Of a stretch of DNA of 64,000 bases, positions 7,181-64,000 are shown piece after piece. The notes under the pieces are model-generated. The model had not been told where the DNA came from. It did no database searches and was given only the letters and a program-made list of their open reading frames with translations. Every line of letters starts with the position of its first letter. The first letter of the stretch is position 1. The stretch lies in NCBI GenBank assembly GCA_026988115.1, contig JALSLV010000120.1, positions 1 through 64,000 of the forward strand, written 5' to 3'. This DNA is from Lysobacterales bacterium. Its GTDB lineage: Bacteria; Pseudomonadota; Gammaproteobacteria; Xanthomonadales; Marinicellaceae. The position numbers and the translations under genes are program-made.

Positions 7181-8713
7181 ATGAAATATAAAAAATACTT
7201 TCCAATTTTAGTTGTTCTTGCTTTCTCAGCCTGTGCTCATAAACCAGTTGTTAGCAATAAAGCTGACAAGAAAATAACAACAAAAGAATCACCTGCGTGG
7301 TGGTACCAACAAGGTCAGGATAAGGTTAAGCAACTGGCTTTACAAAACCACTTTCCAAAACACGCTAAAAATGTCATTTTATTTATTGGCGATGGCATGA
7401 ATATCAGTACCATAACCGCTGCACGGATATTTGAAGGGCAGTCAAAAGGAGAAAAAGGGGAAGAAAACCAACTTAGTTTTGAAAAATTCCCACAAACAGC
7501 ATTGGCAAAGACCTACAACACTAATTTGCAAACGCCCGATTCTGCCGGTACCATGAGCGCCATGATGACAGGTGTGAAAACAAAGGGAGGTGTTATTTCT
7601 GTCGATGGTGAAATCACTATTGGTGATTGCGAATCAGGCATGGGGCACGAACGCATAACTTTATTGGAATGGGCAGAAAAAAATGGCATGGTCACAGGAG
7701 TGGTTTCAACCGCACGGTTAACTCATGCGACCCCAGCAGCGACTTATTCACATGCGGTGTCTCGTGGTTGGGAAGCCGATAGCGATATTCCTGTGAGCGA
7801 ACGTAAAAAGGGTTGTAAAGACATAGCCCGTCAGTTAATCGAATTTCCTTATGGCGATGGATTGGAAGTGGCATTAGGCGGAGGACGCAGAAATTTCTTA
7901 CCCTCAAATGAAAACGATCCAGAATATAAAAATAAAAAAGGCTCTCGCCTTGATAACCGCAATTTGATGAAAGAATGGAAAGCCAAATACAAAGATTCAC
8001 AAGTTGTGTGGAACAAAAAACAATTCAAACAAGTTAAAGCAAAGAAAACTAAGCATTTGCTTGGACTGTTTGAACCTTCACACATGCAGTATGAGCATGA
8101 CCGAGCAAACGATAAGGCAGGAGAGCCAAGTCTAAAAGCCATGACTAAAACAGCCTTAAAGGTATTGAAAAACTCTGATAAGCCTTTTTTCTTAATGGTT
8201 GAAGCGGGACGAATTGATCACGCTCACCACGCAGGCAATGCTTATCGCGCCTTAACTGATACGGTAGAATTGAGTCAAGCGGTTAAAACAGCCTTAAAAA
8301 ATGTTAATTTAGATGAAACGCTTATCATGGTCACTGCCGATCATTCCCATACCTTTAATATGGCGGGTTATCCTGAGCGTGGCAATCCGATTTTAGGCAT
8401 TGTAAAATCACCTGATGAATACGGTAAAATTGCAGGACATGTATCCAAAGATGCCGAAGGCAAACCCTATACGACCTTGTCTTATGCCAATGGTCCTGGT
8501 TATGTTGATGGTGCTAATCGCCCAGATTTAACTCATGTGGATACCACCAATCCTGACTACAAACAAGCAGCTGCCATTCCAAAACTATCCGAAACCCACA
8601 GTGGAGAAGATGTAGCCATATACGCAACAGGCGCAGGATCACAAACGGTGCATGGAACCATTGAACAAAATGTTATTTACCATATTATGAAATATGCGTT
8701 AACGCATAAGTAA
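7181..8713 (+). CDS. Alkaline phosphatase (PhoA family), probable lipoprotein
   Basis: This 510-residue phosphomonoesterase of the alkaline phosphatase superfamily has metal-binding FIGDGMN (68-74) and the nucleophile Ser121 in TPDSAGTMSAMMTG. It also has VEAGRIDHAHHAGN, TADHSHTF and the C-terminal ETHSGEDVAIYATG with the last metal-binding His. The N-terminus MKYKKYFPILVVLAFSAC ends in Cys18. This looks like a lipobox although the -3 residue is Phe, so either a lipoprotein or a periplasmic protein is possible. It starts 5 bp after the MAPEG stop and ends before a strong hairpin at 8723-8748. Confidence 0.93.
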   Translation: MKYKKYFPILVVLAFSACAHKPVVSNKADKKITTKESPAWWYQQGQDKVKQLALQNHFPKHAKNVILFIGDGMNISTITAARIFEGQSKGEKGEENQLSFEKFPQTALAKTYNTNLQTPDSAGTMSAMMTGVKTKGGVISVDGEITIGDCESGMGHERITLLEWAEKNGMVTGVVSTARLTHATPAATYSHAVSRGWEADSDIPVSERKKGCKDIARQLIEFPYGDGLEVALGGGRRNFLPSNENDPEYKNKKGSRLDNRNLMKEWKAKYKDSQVVWNKKQFKQVKAKKTKHLLGLFEPSHMQYEHDRANDKAGEPSLKAMTKTALKVLKNSDKPFFLMVEAGRIDHAHHAGNAYRALTDTVELSQAVKTALKNVNLDETLIMVTADHSHTFNMAGYPERGNPILGIVKSPDEYGKIAGHVSKDAEGKPYTTLSYANGPGYVDGANRPDLTHVDTTNPDYKQAAAIPKLSETHSGEDVAIYATGAGSQTVHGTIEQNVIYHIMKYALTHK

Positions 8714-8722
8714 TACAGCGAG

Positions 8723-8748
8723 ACCGAGAAAGAATGTTCTTTCTCGGT
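8723..8748. terminator. Bidirectional hairpin terminator between phoA-type gene and sbcB
   Basis: A perfect 12-bp inverted repeat (ACCGAGAAAGAA / TTCTTTCTCGGT) is separated by 2 nt, so the effective loop is larger. It sits between the convergent alkaline phosphatase and sbcB genes. There is no long T-run, so termination strength is uncertain. Confidence 0.65.
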
Positions 8749-8754
8749 TAAGTT

Positions 8755-10182
8755 CTAACTGTTCAAGCTAGAAATTTTGCCTTTCATGTAATCTTCAACA
8801 AAATCAAGTATCTTAAGTTGCGTTGGGTCGTTTTCTTGTTGGCGCATGAGCTGTAAGTTTTCAAACCACAGCACAGCATTTTCACCAAACCTTAAGTTAA
8901 TTCGATTACGTATGTCTTTAAGCCATGCAGCGTTTTCTTCAGCAGTCAATGACGCAGGGTAATTGCGCGCAATAAAACGCGTGACTAATTTTTGCGCTCT
9001 TAGGTCTTTAAACTTTAAATCGGTTGAACGAATTTTTTCGATCGAGGAACGACGAATAAATTCAAAATTTTGTTTATCCTGCGCGGTAAAAAATCCCGAA
9101 TAAAGCATGGTGTCGACATCATCCGAATCATTATCAAAGGCTTGATTAAAAACCGCTTGCACTTTTTGAATGAGGCTTTCTTGGGCTTTAAATTTTGCAA
9201 GGTTTTCTTTAACAACGCTATAATCCAGTTTTATTCTGTCCAAATCCACGTCCTTAAGCACACCCAAAGGTGCGACAATTGGCGATTTATTAATGTGAAT
9301 AGTTTTGAGTGGAATCCGTTGTATGCCTTCAGGCAAATCATCTTGCGGTGTGTAGAGCCTGTCACGAATATCCTCGACATCCAATTCAAACAAATCATCG
9401 GGATTGGTTGATAAGTCATAACAAATAACACCATTTGGATTGGTCGGGTGAATCGCAAGCGGCAACATAATGGCTAAACAACCGCGTTGTGCTGGGATTT
9501 TGCTCGATACATGCACAATGGGTTTCATTAATTGCCAGTTTAATAAGCTCTGCACGTATTTTTTATTGCGTAACTGCAAGCAGAAATCAAATAATTTAGG
9601 CTGTTTACTTTTGAGTAAACGTGCCACCTGAATAGTTGCCTCGACATCGCTTAAGGCATCGTGCGCAGCGGTATGTATCATGTTGTTGGCATCGGTCAAG
9701 TCAGTGAGTTTAAAACTGGGTTTGCCTTCTTCATGAAATGCCCAGTTAATCCCTTCAGGTCGCAGAGCATAACAAGCCCGCACCACATCAATAATATCCC
9801 AACGGCTGTTGCCATTGGACCACTCGCGCAAATAGGGGTCGTATAAATTGCGGTACAAGCTGTAACGGATAAACTCATCATCAAAACGCATGGAATTATA
9901 GCCCACTACGCAGCTATGCGGTTCACTAAAAATAGTGTTGATTTTTTCCATAAAATCCTTATCAAGCACCCCTTTTTCATCGCATTCTTGCGGCGTAATG
10001 CCAGTAATCAAACAAGCCTGTGGGTCAGCAATGGTATCTAGAGTCGTTTGGCAATAAAACATATCAGGCTCACCGATGGGATTGAGATCCAAATCCGTAC
10101 GAATGCCAGCAAACTGAGCAATTCGGTCAAATTGAGGCGAGATACCAAAGGTTTCTAAATCGTACCAATAAAAAGAACTCAT
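8755..10182 (-). CDS. sbcB: Exodeoxyribonuclease I
   Basis: ExoI degrades single-stranded DNA 3' to 5' and takes part in recombination and mismatch repair. The product (475 aa from the ATG at 10182, MSSFYWYDLETFGISPQFDR) has the DEDD exonuclease motifs: YDLETFG, YNSMRFDDEFIRY and HDALSDVEAT. The family-typical C-terminal regions follow (SH3-like and C-terminal helical parts), and the length matches E. coli ExoI (475). The 91-bp gap to ada is divergent and probably holds both promoters. Confidence 0.95.
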   Translation of the reverse strand: MSSFYWYDLETFGISPQFDRIAQFAGIRTDLDLNPIGEPDMFYCQTTLDTIADPQACLITGITPQECDEKGVLDKDFMEKINTIFSEPHSCVVGYNSMRFDDEFIRYSLYRNLYDPYLREWSNGNSRWDIIDVVRACYALRPEGINWAFHEEGKPSFKLTDLTDANNMIHTAAHDALSDVEATIQVARLLKSKQPKLFDFCLQLRNKKYVQSLLNWQLMKPIVHVSSKIPAQRGCLAIMLPLAIHPTNPNGVICYDLSTNPDDLFELDVEDIRDRLYTPQDDLPEGIQRIPLKTIHINKSPIVAPLGVLKDVDLDRIKLDYSVVKENLAKFKAQESLIQKVQAVFNQAFDNDSDDVDTMLYSGFFTAQDKQNFEFIRRSSIEKIRSTDLKFKDLRAQKLVTRFIARNYPASLTAEENAAWLKDIRNRINLRFGENAVLWFENLQLMRQQENDPTQLKILDFVEDYMKGKISSLNS

Positions 10183-10273
10183 AACAAAAGCCTTGATTAA
10201 AAGCATTAATCTAACCTGTGTGAAGATACTTGTCAATTTATCGGTAGTAATCAAACAAAGCTTGTTTTATTAT

Positions 10274-11332
10274 ATGCCCATGAAATCGCAACTGACATTC
10301 GAACAAAAATACCAACTCTTAGGGCAAAAGAACAGCCATTACGACGGCAGTTTTTTTACCGCGGTGAAAACCACAGGCATTTTTTGCCATCCCTCCTGCC
10401 GTGCCCGCACCCCAAAGGCGAACAATGTTATCTTTTACGATGATGTACAAACTTGTTTAGAAAATGGTTACCGTCCTTGCAAAATTTGCAAACCATTAGA
10501 ACAAATAGGGCAGGTGCCAGATTACGTAAAAACTATCATGGCGCAATTGCAGAAAAACCCCCAAGACAAAATCAGTGATGACGATTTAAAACAACAAGGC
10601 ATAGAACCGCACACCATCAGGCGCTGGTACAAAAAAAATCACGGCATAACCTTTCATGCCTTCCAACGCATGTTCCGCATCAACTACGCCTTCAACCACA
10701 TCAAAAAAGGCAAAAGCATCACCACCTCTGCCTTTGACAGTGGTTATGACTCTTTGAGCGGATTTAACCAATCATTTCAAACAGTTTTTGGTCAAAGTGC
10801 CAATAAAAGCAAGAATAAAAATGTTGTTAATGTTGTTCGAATTGCCTCGCCCATTGGCGCGTTGATTGCCTGTGCATCAGAAAAAGGCATCTGTTTTTTA
10901 GGCTTTGTTGGACAAAAGCATTTGCAACGAAATTTTGCCTTGATTCAAAAACATTTCAAAGCCGTCATCCTACCAACACCCAATCGACATCTGAAAGTTC
11001 TGGAAAAAGAACTCAAACACTACTTTGCTGGTAAACGCCAAACCTTTGAAGTGCCCCTAGACATTATCGGCACCGAATTCCAACAAAAAGTCTGGCAAGC
11101 CTTAATGAAAATCCCCTACGGACAAACCTCAACCTACAAACAACAAGCCCTTTCAATGGACAAACTCAAAGCCATCCGCGCCGTCGCTACCGCCAACGGT
11201 GCCAATAAAATCAGCATCATTATTCCGTGCCATCGTATTATCGGCACCGATGGCTCGTTGACGGGTTATGCAGGAGGGTTGCATCGCAAGAGGTGGTTGT
11301 TGGATTTTGAGGGTGGGGGATTGGGTGGTTAA
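10274..11332 (+). CDS. ada: Bifunctional DNA repair methyltransferase/regulator Ada
   Basis: Ada removes methyl groups from alkylated DNA onto its own cysteines and, once methylated at the N-terminal site, activates the adaptive response. Starting at the ATG at 10274 gives 352 residues. Zinc-binding Cys38, Cys42, Cys69 and Cys72 (FCHPSCRAR, RPCKICK) then fall at the same positions as in E. coli Ada. An AraC-type helix-turn-helix follows (about 105-175), then the O6-methylguanine methyltransferase domain with IIIPCHRIIG (acceptor Cys319). The C-terminus (GGGLGG) ends in a stop codon whose TAA is the first three bases of the attC-like element at 11330-11459. This suggests the original gene end was altered by insertion. 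Confidence 0.94.
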   Translation: MPMKSQLTFEQKYQLLGQKNSHYDGSFFTAVKTTGIFCHPSCRARTPKANNVIFYDDVQTCLENGYRPCKICKPLEQIGQVPDYVKTIMAQLQKNPQDKISDDDLKQQGIEPHTIRRWYKKNHGITFHAFQRMFRINYAFNHIKKGKSITTSAFDSGYDSLSGFNQSFQTVFGQSANKSKNKNVVNVVRIASPIGALIACASEKGICFLGFVGQKHLQRNFALIQKHFKAVILPTPNRHLKVLEKELKHYFAGKRQTFEVPLDIIGTEFQQKVWQALMKIPYGQTSTYKQQALSMDKLKAIRAVATANGANKISIIIPCHRIIGTDGSLTGYAGGLHRKRWLLDFEGGGLGG

Positions 11333-11459
11333 CGTCTCGGCTATGGTTAGTTGCGACAATTTAGCACTTAACTTCCTAAGTACAAAACCAAGTTGGAAAA
11401 ATCGGAGATTTTTCCAAAGTAGCACAGAACTAAGCAATTAAGTATAGCCATTGTTGGCA
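11330..11459 (-). repeat. attC-like structured element A (about 130 bp)
   Basis: The element forms a long imperfect hairpin. Outer arms GGCTAT (11339-11344) and ATAGCC (11444-11449) pair. Inside them TTAGTTGC pairs with GCAATTAA, and a central 11-bp hairpin TTGGAAAAATC/GATTTTTCCAA occupies 11393-11417. Ends read TAACG... and ...TGTTGGCA. The copy at 63059-63187 has the same order of parts, with different but still complementary outer arms and central hairpin. It follows the HNH-like gene's stop codon by 10 bp, in the orientation expected of a gene-cassette recombination site. Integron attC identity is an inference. Confidence 0.6.
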
Positions 11460-11469
11460 AGTCGTTTTT

Positions 11470-12159
11470 TTACCAGACTATTTCACATGCAAGGTAATTC
11501 CAAATTAATATTCGAACCTTTACACTTCCGATTGTAGGCGTAACTGAATATTGATAAATTCCGTTTTGAACAACAATCCAATTGTCAATCGGTATTTCCT
11601 CTGGAGTAATATACATATTCTGCATTGCTCGACTTCCAATTTCAGGTGTTTTCTGTAATTCCGTTGTCACAAAGAATGAGTTTAATTCCTCTTCGGTCAA
11701 TGTTTCGATTGGTACAAAACCTAAATGCTTTGGCTTTTCATATTTTCTATCGCTATTTTCATATTTTACGTGTCCATATGCTAATTTTAAAATGACATTC
11801 TCAATTCTTTCTGGTTCAATTTTAAAATAGGTTTCTCCATTTTCATTAATAAATGAGTTATCTAAACGAGCCTTTAATTTCTTTTTTCGTTTCAAGATTT
11901 TTATAATACTTTCTCTTGATAGTTTGTCCAAATCCGTTGTTCCTGAAATCAGGCACTCAATCATACAAGCAAAGTATTCCTCGTCTAATGAAAATCCGCT
12001 ATTACATTCCAAGCAACTTGGTACTACAGGAATATTTTCAGGAAAAGGTTTTTCAAGAAGGATTTTAGAAGGAACGTGGTCTCTTGTGTCAGGTAGTTTT
12101 CCGCAATAAGCACATTGAGTGTCTAATCTACTATCGCTAAATGTTTTTATTTGCCTCAA
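11470..12159 (-). CDS. HNH-endonuclease-like zinc-ribbon protein, cassette gene
   Basis: This 229-residue protein is not clearly assigned to a named family. The N-terminus holds C16-x2-C19, then D27-H28, then C49-x2-C52-N53 (CAYCGKLPDTRDHVPSK ... CLECNSGFS). This is the layout of a degenerate HNH/zinc-finger nuclease with two CxxC zinc knuckles. The rest (60-229) has no motif I recognise. The frame begins at a TTG (12159) just after an in-frame stop, so TTG or a downstream codon is the start. It is a single gene between an attC-like element at its 3' end and the repeat array at its 5' side, with neighbours of unrelated function. This fits a mobile cassette. Confidence 0.65.
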   Translation of the reverse strand: MRQIKTFSDSRLDTQCAYCGKLPDTRDHVPSKILLEKPFPENIPVVPSCLECNSGFSLDEEYFACMIECLISGTTDLDKLSRESIIKILKRKKKLKARLDNSFINENGETYFKIEPERIENVILKLAYGHVKYENSDRKYEKPKHLGFVPIETLTEEELNSFFVTTELQKTPEIGSRAMQNMYITPEEIPIDNWIVVQNGIYQYSVTPTIGSVKVRILIWNYLACEIVW

Positions 12160-12426
12160 TTTTCAATTCGATTTCTGGGTTTTCTTAAATGCTTGCTAAC
12201 ATTGTAATATACACACAACTGCATATAGCACGGATTATAAACTGTCTATATTACGAAGAATGACTCCGTAATGATTATTTTTTTCCGCTTGAAATATGAA
12301 AGAGCGTCTAAAATAAATTCTAGCGGATTGATTTATTGTAGCTTATGGGTGGTTTTGGGGCAATGGGTTTTTTATCTGTTTTTTGTGCGAGTTTTTGGTT
12401 TTTTTTGAAATTACGGTTGCTTTAAG
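12160..12426. other. Gene-free accessory DNA upstream of the HNH-like gene
   Basis: No gene is visible here. At 12197-12222 the plus strand starts TAACATTG and contains CAACTGC, loosely resembling the TAACG...GTTGC end of the attC-like elements. It may be a decayed half-site at the other border of the HNH cassette, but the match is weak. The rest is AT-rich and unstructured. Confidence 0.3.
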
Positions 12427-12460
12427 AGGTTGCCGCGTCGCTTATGCTCCTCGCAATGAC
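12427..12460. repeat. Right-arm fragment of the 107-bp palindromic element
   Basis: This 34-bp piece (GAGGTTGCCGCGTCGCTTAT...GCAATGAC) matches the right arm of the four complete elements at 12546, 12738, 13214 and 13690. Its left arm is missing. It marks the start of the tandem array: the first 192-bp unit runs from the base after it. Confidence 0.85.
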
Positions 12461-12844
12461 ATTTTAGTTTTTGATTTGTTTTATTCTATATTCAATTTGT
12501 GGGTTTTGCGATGAGTCTGCTACTTTAAAGTTTAAAAAGAATCAGGTCATTGCGAGGAGGGACGACGTGGCAATCTCATCAAGCTGTGGTATTTTTTGAA
12601 TTAGGGTTTAACGTTAGAAGATTGCCACGTCGCTAATGCTCCTCGCAATGACATTTTGGTTTTTGATTTGTTTTATTCTATATTCAATTTGTGGGTTTTG
12701 CGATGAGTCTGCTACTTTAAAGTTTAAAAAGAATCAGGTCATTGCGAGGAGGGACGACGTGGCAATCTCATCAAGCTGTGGTATTTTTTGAATTAGGGTT
12801 TAACGTTAGAAGATTACCACGTCGCTTATGCTCCTCGCAATGAC
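12461..12844. repeat. Two tandem 192-bp units, each ending in a 107-bp palindrome
   Basis: Units 12461-12652 and 12653-12844 are nearly identical with an exact 192-bp period. Each holds an 85-bp AT-rich spacer followed by a 107-bp element (12546-12652 and 12738-12844). The element has a left arm GTCATTGCGAGGAGGGACGA and a right arm ending GCTCCTCGCAATGAC, which pair over most of their length. The loop contains GGTATTTTTTGAATTAGGG. No protein is encoded. Confidence 0.9.
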
Positions 12845-12897
12845 GGTGTGTTTTTTGAAAATATGTTATACTTATCTCAGTTTTTAAGGATAATGAC

Positions 12898-13185
12898 ATG
12901 AAAAATGGATACGTTTATATCATCACCAATCAAAATAATACAGTTCTTTACACTGGGGTTACGAGTGATTTAATTTCGCGTATAGCACAACATAAAAATA
13001 AATTAATTAAAGGTTTTTCATCGCGATACAATTGTAATAAATTAGTTTATTATGAGATTGGCAGTGGAATGGAAGGCTGTATTTTAAGGGAGAAACAAAT
13101 TAAAGCAGGCTCTCGGTTGAAAAAGATTGAGTTGATAGAATCTGTTAATCCAAATTGGAAAGACTTATACCAAGATTTGCTATGA
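12898..13185 (+). CDS. GIY-YIG nuclease family protein, copy 1
   Basis: This 95-residue single-domain GIY-YIG endonuclease of the UvrC-N/YhbQ type has the variant motif Y5-V-Y7 ... Y18-T-G20 and the catalytic-type Arg28 and His32 in ISRIAQHK. The metal-binding Glu65 is in REKQIK, and the family C-terminus NPNWKDL is present. All key residues are intact, so it is probably active. It has its own extended -10 promoter and a good Shine-Dalgarno sequence (AAGGATAATGAC). It differs from copy 2 by only three bases, two of them silent and one giving Ile77 here versus Phe77. Position inside a palindrome array suggests that it acts on or spreads with that repeat. This is an inference. Confidence 0.9.
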   Translation: MKNGYVYIITNQNNTVLYTGVTSDLISRIAQHKNKLIKGFSSRYNCNKLVYYEIGSGMEGCILREKQIKAGSRLKKIELIESVNPNWKDLYQDLL

Positions 13186-13213
13186 CATTAATAGTAAAGT
13201 TCAAAAGAACTTT

Positions 13214-13320
13214 GTCATTGCGAGGAGGGACGACGTGGCAATCTCATTAAGTTGTGGTATTTTTTGAATTAGGGTTTAACGTTAGAAGATTGCCGCGTCG
13301 CTGATGCTCCTCGCAATGAC
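13214..13320. repeat. 107-bp palindromic element, copy 3
   Basis: It has the same length and arms as the copies at 12546 and 12738, with small changes in the loop (TCATTAAGTTG) and right arm (CCGCGTCGCTGATG). It lies between the two GIY-YIG genes and ends 476 bp before the end of copy 4. Confidence 0.9.
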
Positions 13321-13373
13321 GGTGTGTTTTTTGAAAATATGTTATACTTATCTCAGTTTTTAAGGATAATGAC

Positions 13374-13661
13374 ATGAAAAATGGATACGTTTATATCATC
13401 ACCAATCAAAACAATACAGTTCTTTACACTGGGGTTACGAGTGATTTAATTTCGCGTATAGCACAACATAAAAATAAATTAATTAAAGGTTTTTCATCGC
13501 GATACAATTGTAATAAATTAGTTTATTATGAGATTGGTAGTGGAATGGAAGGCTGTATTTTAAGGGAGAAACAAATTAAAGCAGGCTCTCGGTTGAAAAA
13601 GTTTGAGTTGATAGAATCTGTTAATCCAAATTGGAAAGACTTATACCAAGATTTGCTATGA
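13374..13661 (+). CDS. GIY-YIG nuclease family protein, copy 2
   Basis: This 95-residue protein is identical to copy 1 except Ile77 is Phe. The GIY-YIG motif residues (Tyr5, Tyr7, Tyr18, Gly20, Arg28, His32, Glu65) are all kept. Two silent changes (AAT to AAC, GGC to GGT) separate the genes. Retention of an intact frame in both copies suggests either a very recent duplication or selection on the protein. Confidence 0.9.
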   Translation: MKNGYVYIITNQNNTVLYTGVTSDLISRIAQHKNKLIKGFSSRYNCNKLVYYEIGSGMEGCILREKQIKAGSRLKKFELIESVNPNWKDLYQDLL

Positions 13662-13689
13662 CATTAATAGTAAAATTAAAAAGAACTTT

Positions 13690-13796
13690 GTCATTGCGAG
13701 GAGGGACGACGTGGCAATCTCATCAAGCTGTGGTATTTTTTGAATTAGGGTTTAATGTTAGAAGATTGCCGCGTCGCTTATGCTCCTCGCAATGAC
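13690..13796. repeat. 107-bp palindromic element, copy 4
   Basis: This is the last palindrome of the array, with the same arms as copies 1-3 and a loop containing TTTAATGTTAGAAG. Immediately after it the repeated sequence stops, so the array boundary coincides with the palindrome end. Confidence 0.9.
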
Positions 13797-14162
13797 GGTG
13801 TTTTTTTGCATCTTCTTTGTGCTCTGTGCGTTACGCTTTAAGAATCTCCGTGTATCTCTGTGATTGCTCCGTGAATCTCTGTGTTCCTTAGCAGATTTAA
13901 AAGAAACGATGCGGTCGGTGGATTTGATATTTTTTGGTTTAGTTTACTATTTTTTTTAATTAATTTGAATAATTCCTCTTGTTCTACCGTTAGTGTATTG
14001 AAGTGCTGATATTCACTCTCTATTTTTGTTAAGTTAAATCTGACAAAGTGATTTTCCCCAATTTCAGCACTTCACTGCTAAATAAAATCAACTCGTTTTT
14101 GTTGGTTTTATTTTTACACTATTAATAAGCAAATTAATTTTTGCTTAAATGAGGAAATTATA
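13797..14162. other. Gene-free region with CTCTGTG-rich repeat and an inverted repeat
   Basis: No gene is visible. About 13805-13890 is a degenerate direct repeat built on CTCTGTG/CTCCGTG, the complement type of the CACAGAG repeat at about 63021-63050. A 10-bp inverted repeat, GAAGTGCTGA (14000-14009) and TCAGCACTTC (14064-14073), lies in the leader or promoter region of the downstream secreted protein gene. It could be an operator pair or RNA structure. Confidence 0.45.
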
Positions 14163-62949: not shown

Positions 62950-63058
62950 CTACGCAAAGACCGAAAAGAAAATTTTCTGATAGTAATCTAATTCAGAAAA
63001 TAACAAGGGTAAAAGCGATTAACCACAGAGGACACAGAGTTCACAGAGAAGAAAGGGA
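62950..63058. other. Gap between xdhA and attC-like element B
   Basis: There is no gene. A degenerate CACAGAG direct repeat (about 63021-63050, ACCACAGAGGACACAGAGTT) is present, like the one at 13805-13890. Confidence 0.4.
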
Positions 63059-63187
63059 TAACGTGTTTGTGTATGATTAGTTGGGTAGTTTAAGCACTAA
63101 AGTTAGTAAATAAATCACAGATAGAAAGTCCGCGAGGACTTTCGTAAATTGGCTAAAACCAGCAATTAATTATACACGGTGTTGGCA
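63059..63187 (-). repeat. attC-like structured element B (about 130 bp)
   Basis: It has the same architecture as element A: TAACG at the outer end, arms GTGTAT (63069-63074)/ATACAC (63172-63177), TTAGTTG pairing with CAATTAA, central hairpin GAAAGTCC (63124-63131)/GGACTTTC (63136-63143), and GTTGGCA at the gene side. The outer arms differ from those of A yet keep their pairing. It begins 5 bp after the stop of the nuclease-like gene on the minus strand. Confidence 0.6.
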
Positions 63188-63192
63188 TTTCG

Positions 63193-64000
63193 TTATTTCT
63201 TTATTTCAATTCGGTTATTTATTCTTCGGTGAATAATTCCATTTTCAATACTTGAATTTTCTTTATCTGTTTTAAATATTCCTTTAAATCTATAAAGTGT
63301 AAATCCTAAATTGTCTTTACTTCTCGGAAATACAATTCGATTTACGCTACTGTTCATTAAACTGTCAAAATGTTCTTTCTGTTTTGATTCAGTTTTGCAT
63401 TTTTCCGTAATAGTCAAACCATCATCAGATATCCAATTATCCCATTTGTCATTGTTGTAAAATTTTGGAAACCAAATGTTATGATTTTCATATACTTTAC
63501 TTTTAACATAAGAACGTTGAGAACCATCTTTGTAATTTTGTCCTAAACAGTTACAAGCGTGAGAAATTGTTTTGAACGCAGGATTTTCCTTCGTGTCTAA
63601 ATATCCTTTTTCTCGATGATATTCAGGGTTAAATTCTTTTCCTAAATCCCAAGGTTCAAAAGTGTTTTCGTCAATATTTTTCGTTCGTAGTGCACTTATT
63701 TCATTAATAATATAATCAATTTGTTTATTAATAAAATTGATATCATCAGTTATTTTAACTCGTTCTATTTTGTGATTTGTAGCCTCAATTATATCTGATT
63801 CTCTGTTTAAATCCAATTCCTTTTGTTTATTGTGGAATGGTTCATCAATTTCAATATGTAAATTAAATTGAGGAAAAAACATATCTGTTAGAGCGTGTCC
63901 ATTTGGTCTATTAACAAATTGTTGTGTTGTGAATTTTACGTCTGTTTTATTTATTCCGTGCCAAATTCGAGTGACAACATAATTTTCAAAATTCTTTTTA
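63193..64000 (-). CDS. PD-(D/E)XK-like nuclease protein, 5' end outside window
   Basis: This frame ends at 63193 and stays open, without a stop, up to the right edge of the window, so only the last ~268 residues are seen. The segment GHALTDMFFPQFNLHIEIDE matches the catalytic pattern D-x(n)-E-x-D of DUF559/Vsr-type PD-(D/E)XK nucleases. It is followed by a helix with a conserved Arg (LDLNRESDII) and ERVKIT. The C-terminal half (KEFNPEYHREKGYLDTKENP and beyond) is not recognised. The ATG at 63882 is inside the conserved domain, so the true start lies further left on the minus strand. It is followed by attC-like element B, like the HNH gene by element A. Confidence 0.65.
   Translation of the reverse strand, partial: KKNFENYVVTRIWHGINKTDVKFTTQQFVNRPNGHALTDMFFPQFNLHIEIDEPFHNKQKELDLNRESDIIEATNHKIERVKITDDINFINKQIDYIINEISALRTKNIDENTFEPWDLGKEFNPEYHREKGYLDTKENPAFKTISHACNCLGQNYKDGSQRSYVKSKVYENHNIWFPKFYNNDKWDNWISDDGLTITEKCKTESKQKEHFDSLMNSSVNRIVFPRSKDNLGFTLYRFKGIFKTDKENSSIENGIIHRRINNRIEIKK

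Follow-up and report, generated by a model that had tools for sequence, protein, structure and literature searches.

Element A, an attC-like site at positions 11327-11459 (minus strand) of the 64,000-nucleotide stretch of DNA analysed here (the window), is very probably the equivalent of the attC site of a one-gene mobile cassette in a very large integron-like system that is common among marine Flavobacteriaceae. The cognate enzyme is most likely a compact tyrosine recombinase and not the integron integrase IntI. This assignment was made by sequence comparison of draft assemblies, which yielded a conserved and covarying fold, the anatomy of cassette arrays, linkage of enzyme to array, attI-like sites, and orthologous sites that differ in their cassettes while the breakpoints match.

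Elements A and B and their cassettes

As single-stranded DNA, element A forms an imperfect hairpin that is more stable than all 200 of its dinucleotide shuffles (z -3.6), and it scores 92.9 bits against a covariance model of the element family (R1). The initial annotation had recognised a hairpin at 11330-11459, a location that is borne out, with a full extent of 11327-11459. The strand requires restating: because the cassette gene is encoded by the minus strand and is located right of the element, the plus strand displayed for the window is the folding 'bottom' strand. On that strand the RNAalifold consensus and pair counts place the left stem arm GGCTATGGTTAGTTGC at 11339-11354 and the right stem arm GCAATTAAGTATAGCC at 11434-11449, and both DNA and RNA folds give a central hairpin with an 11-bp stem at 11393-11417. 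The crossover point (AA|C) is inferred to lie at 11332-11333, directly 3′ of the TAA stop of an Ada gene, where the left break is common to different cassettes in genomes G004 and G003.

Element B (63056-63187, minus strand), a second attC-like site scoring 115.5 bits against R1, is a relative of element A. Initial comparison of the two had reported outer arms that differ in sequence (GGCTAT/ATAGCC in A, GTGTAT/ATACAC in B) with their pairing kept, an inner TTAGTTG/CAATTAA pairing that is conserved, and central hairpins that are unlike in sequence and still paired; we confirm all three. The covariation claimed from them cannot be proved by A and B alone, although the larger sets of 45 and 150 elements described below do establish it. 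Each element immediately follows the stop of an ORF on the minus strand (11470-12159 for A; 63193-64044 of the contig for B). Read in minus-strand order, each is laid out as an integron attC, with an R″-like box (GCCAACA), a long arm, a variable interior, the other arm and an R′-like box (CGTTA).

The ORF and element A together make up cassette A (11333-12199, minus strand; 867 bp), at which homology to G004 breaks at 11333-11345 and resumes at 12197. The gene (11470-12159, minus strand, TTG start) encodes a protein of 229 aa with an HNH-like CxxC...H motif, seen by eye only, and without a match in Pfam, NCBIfam or PADLOC. Outside the cassette, a host gene for an Ada-type methyltransferase (10193-11332, plus strand; Pfam, with orthologues in G003, G004 and G006) forms the flank, and its stop codon abuts cassette A. 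Cassette B (63062-64000, minus strand) continues beyond the window to contig position 64072, where there is a second attI-like site (at 64070). Its gene (63193-64000 in the window, full ORF 63193-64044 on the contig; minus strand) encodes a PvuRts1I-like modification-dependent restriction enzyme with an N-terminal nuclease domain and an SRA domain (Pfam PF21598 and PF18491; PADLOC mREase_II, E 1e-94). Searches of 31 genomes returned one 44% relative of the cassette A protein, in G010, and none of the cassette B protein. Homologues of either were not found in 20 Flavobacteriaceae genomes and therefore a Flavobacteriaceae origin of both cargoes is not shown.

A family of folded sites and the recombinases linked to it

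In the window genome (G000) the covariance model recovered A, B and copies on contigs C114, C73 and C64, with a weaker partial match on C53. Sibling species hold 0-5 elements each, and among 41 genomes searched with the model there were none outside two genera of the window's family. The 20 Flavobacteriaceae genomes carry 5-149 elements each and at least 1,227 in total; these counts are a lower bound, no more than 150 candidates per genome having been scored. A right-arm pattern occurs in at least 117 stretches of the GTDB genome collection, almost all of them from Flavobacteriaceae among the matches listed, and was also present on one viral contig from IMG/VR (L181:3095-3119). An exact left-arm pattern missed element A owing to a one-base difference in length.

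Flavobacteriaceae elements are arranged in long one-strand arrays of single-gene cassettes. Of 154 intervals between neighbouring same-strand elements, 133 have their largest ORF in the orientation of the cassette strand and 4 have it in the opposite orientation (133/137 co-oriented). The median gap is 12 bp from stop codon to element and 32 bp from the previous element to the start codon, and 190 of 199 elements are intergenic. The genome of Lacinutrix neustonica (L214, G042:C1:834925-835384), with ~149 elements, has a broken recombinase at the head of its array, which is a candidate frozen array.

The 45 aligned elements share a consensus in which the R boxes pair, a spacer stays unpaired and the arms form a 16-bp stem. 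In this set both sides vary in eight pairs, compared with 2.9 in shuffles, and none of 500 shuffles reaches eight. For the 150 covariance-model hits the number of pairs that vary on both sides is 10, with 210 double-changed cells against 56 in shuffles, again reached by 0/500. Two caveats apply, namely that the 45 rows were partly chosen via the right-arm pattern and that the 150 rows were aligned to the covariance model itself. The bottom strand is the more stable in 189 of 195 elements, by a mean of 9.1 kcal/mol, compared with 112 of 195 control stretches; we infer that this preference is likely to come from conserved G-T wobbles, whose counterparts on the opposite strand are A-C mismatches. 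The family thus has several attC features (R and L boxes, an unpaired spacer and bottom-strand folding). However, the arms are symmetric, 16 against 16, both in the consensus and in the folds of A and B, and lack extrahelical bulged bases, whereas canonical attCs of the sibling G009, folded for comparison, have bulged bases in their arms. Our in-house AAC/GTT stem scanner was too noisy for counting sites, although canonical attCs in one locus (L056) were nonetheless shown.

No integron integrase over the TIGR02249 cut-off was found in any of the 20 Flavobacteriaceae genomes. Contig C64 of the window genome encodes a compact tyrosine recombinase of 280 aa. Such compact enzymes score about 170-210 bits against TIGR02249 (cut-off 265), and the recombinases score around the cut-off of NCBIfam NF040815, which is named for the archaeal XerA. 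Every recombinase in the alignment retains the catalytic residues (R, K, HxLRH, GH and Y), and the ~40-residue IntI insert is missing. The long Flavobacteriaceae form, e.g. L220:5300-6505, is extended at its N-terminus by ~100 residues that match nothing in Pfam, and it is oriented along the array, whereas the short form points away from it. In an unrooted tree IntI sequences form a clade with support of 100/99, and the compact enzymes of the window's family form a clade of their own; the tree contains long branches and does not resolve the deep forks.

Of the 32 recombinases that we examined, compact or long, Flavobacteriaceae contributed 26 (from 18 genomes) and the window's family 6. Sampling began with one per genome, partly chosen for array proximity, and then took in eight remaining second hits to counter this bias. 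An element lies within 3 kb of 23 of the 32 and within ~4 kb of three more (L054, L293 and L296), while the remaining six (L232, L233, L238, L239, L291 and L294) stand beside a contig end on the array side. Wherever a contig extends far enough, an Xer-like recombinase without the IntI insert lies close to the head of the array. Judged by eye, a gene resembling nicotinate-nucleotide adenylyltransferase adjoins the compact recombinase locus of G009 and the degenerate one of G010 (L053:16372-17259 and L290:3037-3762).

These results bear on the proposal in the initial annotation that the layout is attC-like and the sites belong to a distinct family. That proposal survives: there are further copies in the window genome, in its siblings and in 20 Flavobacteriaceae genomes, their arms covary, nearly all of them are intergenic, and they flank single co-oriented genes in the manner of integron cassettes. 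Its expectation of an integrase with an attC-binding insert has to be given up, since the linked recombinase lacks the IntI insert.

Docking sites and cassette exchange

Cassette A adjoins an attI-like docking site (CTAA|CATTGTAATATACACACAACTGCATATAGCACGG...TATATTACG; 12196-12256, plus strand), defined from an alignment of 16 sites that included those preceding recombinase genes, and located at the start of a dispersed repeat of ~215 bp. Within the genus every compact recombinase gene has a palindromic AAC-box site in front of it, e.g. TAACGTCGTAATATACACACAATTGCATATACTACGG ahead of the 280-aa enzyme on C64, and similar palindromes, with a GTT box, adjoin the recombinase genes of Flavobacteriaceae. 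The exact pattern was found six times in the window genome and 12 times in the genus, with no hits for a reversed-pattern control. Five of the six copies in the window genome have no integrase alongside and have the ~215-bp repeat in common; neither cassette A nor cassette B has an integrase beside it.

Comparison of orthologous loci points to exchange at these sites. At the Ada locus, homology between the window genome and G004 extends as far as the AAC box (11332/11333) and is restored from 12197 onward, at 91%. The breaks enclose 867 bp with the cassette A ORF in the window genome, whereas in G004 they enclose 2,271 bp that encode a C5-methyltransferase together with an NgoFVII-like restriction enzyme. 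G003, whose Ada protein is 97% identical, has a third sequence here, an apparent truncated element followed by a type I restriction subunit gene. The window genome and G004 also match at another locus (C73 and C46, respectively) to 12212 (94%) and again from 13037 (98.8%), with different genes between. At both loci the right break coincides with the AAC box of the attI-like site; the left break can be placed only to the nearest few bases, because similar arm sequence starts both cassettes. Exchange at the GTT box is thus inferred from breakpoints that agree at two orthologous loci, by comparison and without an assay. The compared loci showed no target duplication, and their cargo differs between fixed breakpoints. 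We did not find an empty allele of either site: the Ada gene of G006 is without a cassette, but the flank there is diverged, and homology of the relatives at the cassette B site stops with the upstream gene.

Other docking sites adjoin a Sau3AI-type system (C64) and a PD-Lambda-5 system (C120, the window contig, near 75 kb), and defence genes are therefore frequent among the cargoes in this small sample. The latter is a third attI-like site on C120 (72775-75300; L267:12775-15302) and adjoins a PD-Lambda-5 A/B defence pair. Separately, positions 12440-13810 of the window contain two near-identical tandem units of ~476 bp, each with a gene for a 95-aa GIY-YIG nuclease (12898-13185 and 13374-13661) and bounded by repeats containing CATTGCGAGGAGGGACGACGTGGCAATC.

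Mechanism, alternatives and relation to known integrons

We propose that a tyrosine recombinase would bind the folded bottom strand of element A and carry out strand exchange within the AAC box, between its A and C (on the complementary strand, between the G and T of GTT), thereby inserting or removing the cassette at the palindromic attI-like site. The enzyme would most likely be the 280-aa recombinase of C64, a relative of those heading Flavobacteriaceae arrays. In Flavobacteriaceae the same system would build arrays of tens to more than 100 cassettes, and in the Marinicellaceae genus it would mostly leave single cassettes, many with restriction or other defence genes, at dispersed attI-like sites without an adjoining integrase. 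Catalysis by the compact recombinase, a single-stranded substrate and use of the loose attI-like sites in trans are inferences only. Against the proposal, no circular cassette was seen.

The attI-like sites argue for the compact enzyme over IntI, and yet the IntI of C15 remains the main rival for catalysis. Contig C15 of the window genome encodes a full canonical integron integrase (L019:14079-15047; 399 bits), canonical cassettes exist in the genus, and IntI has been reported to insert cassettes into genomic attG sites (as cited in PMC12901181). A and B might then be ordinary attC sites that this IntI moved and dropped at secondary attG-type sites. We consider this improbable. An attG-type target is unlike classical att sites, whereas the target here is a conserved attI-like repeat that matches the site in front of the compact recombinase. 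Moreover, the elements lack the bulged bases of canonical attCs in the same genus, the R1 search found no element on the IntI-bearing loci (L019 and L055-L062), and up to 149 elements per genome occur in genomes without an IntI over the cut-off. Contig C15 ends within the array of its IntI, beyond a partial ORF that reads MSSVPRNKDELELAINS and by eye looks ClbS/DfsB-like; C81 (L020, about 8437-9410) carries another IntI, which is broken.

That the recombinase is a resident Xer- or phage-type enzyme, sitting beside arrays on which some unknown integrase acts, would suit its lack of the IntI insert and its match to the XerA-named family. It is hard to reconcile with linkage near array heads in every evaluable case, when at most ~9% of the genome lies within 3 kb of any element, or with attI-like sites directly beside the recombinase gene, and we give it little credence. 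Nevertheless, Xer-type function at dif-like sites is not excluded, as the compact recombinases fall in a XerA-named NCBI family. Least credible of all is a hairpin repeat scattered between genes (of REP, ERIC or MITE-like type, or an RNA terminator) without a role in recombination. The elements are indeed intergenic, palindromic and multicopy, without an Rfam match above the gathering threshold. However, barring assembly errors, sibling species have different genes between the same breakpoints at two loci (cassette A and C73), where cargo has been replaced and no repeat inserted, and the arrays are strictly co-oriented, single-gene and headed by a recombinase. Local replacement by homologous recombination could imitate one such swap, but hardly two loci breaking at the same motif. 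A MITE or insertion-sequence derivative was ruled against by the cargo that differs between fixed breakpoints and the absence of any target duplication seen.

An integron-like system built on the compact recombinase therefore remains our reading. It resembles IntI integrons (classes 1-3 and superintegrons such as that of Vibrio cholerae) in its arrays of single-gene cassettes, each with a folded attC-type site, in bottom-strand folding and R-box AAC/GTT pairing, in an attI-type entry site beside a tyrosine recombinase, and in exchange at the GTT box. It differs in that the recombinase is without the IntI insert and does not belong to the IntI clade, no extrahelical bases bulge from the arms (strand preference probably being set by the conserved G-T wobbles), the attI site is palindromic, and the long Flavobacteriaceae recombinases point along the array and not away from it. 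The IntI insert and bulged attC bases are regarded as essential for integron recombination. Since tests for these two defining features found neither of them, we read the system as a second kind of integron, one that works like an integron but is not filed in the IntI class.

Lone cassettes without a neighbouring integrase are also a feature of CALINs, single attC sites and attG insertions (IntegronFinder 2.0, PMC9024848; Loot et al. 2024 as cited in PMC12901181), but the docking site here is a recognisable attI-like repeat of a non-IntI recombinase, with several copies per genome. The enzymes are like XerA/XerC recombinases (NF040815) in sequence family, catalytic residues and size, whereas known Xer members resolve chromosome dimers at dif (PMC8138268) and those described here head cassette arrays. 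An 'Integron-like' subgroup of tyrosine recombinases has been named (PMC8138268); the main text does not contain the word attC, and so ties no arrays or sites to insert-less members. We found no description of insert-less integrases with attC arrays in the literature searched, preprints and subscription journals being outside its scope. Only tentatively do we suggest that insert-less Xer-like recombinases may constitute a parallel integron system, with folded single-stranded sites lacking extrahelical bases, and could even represent an ancestral form from which IntI arose by gain of the insert, given that the IntI clade falls among insert-less enzymes in the unrooted tree.

For Bacteroidetes proper, the IntegronFinder 2.0 survey lists only a single complete integron by name (PMC9024848), and on that basis the Flavobacteriaceae arrays appear not to have been counted as complete integrons there. 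If our reading is true, arrays of superintegron size exist without either the insert or the bulged bases, and how a plain tyrosine recombinase reads folded DNA and picks a strand becomes testable. Moreover, Flavobacteriaceae would hold a large and so far uncounted pool of cassettes, and the Marinicellaceae genus would have a route for swapping restriction and other defence genes at fixed sites.
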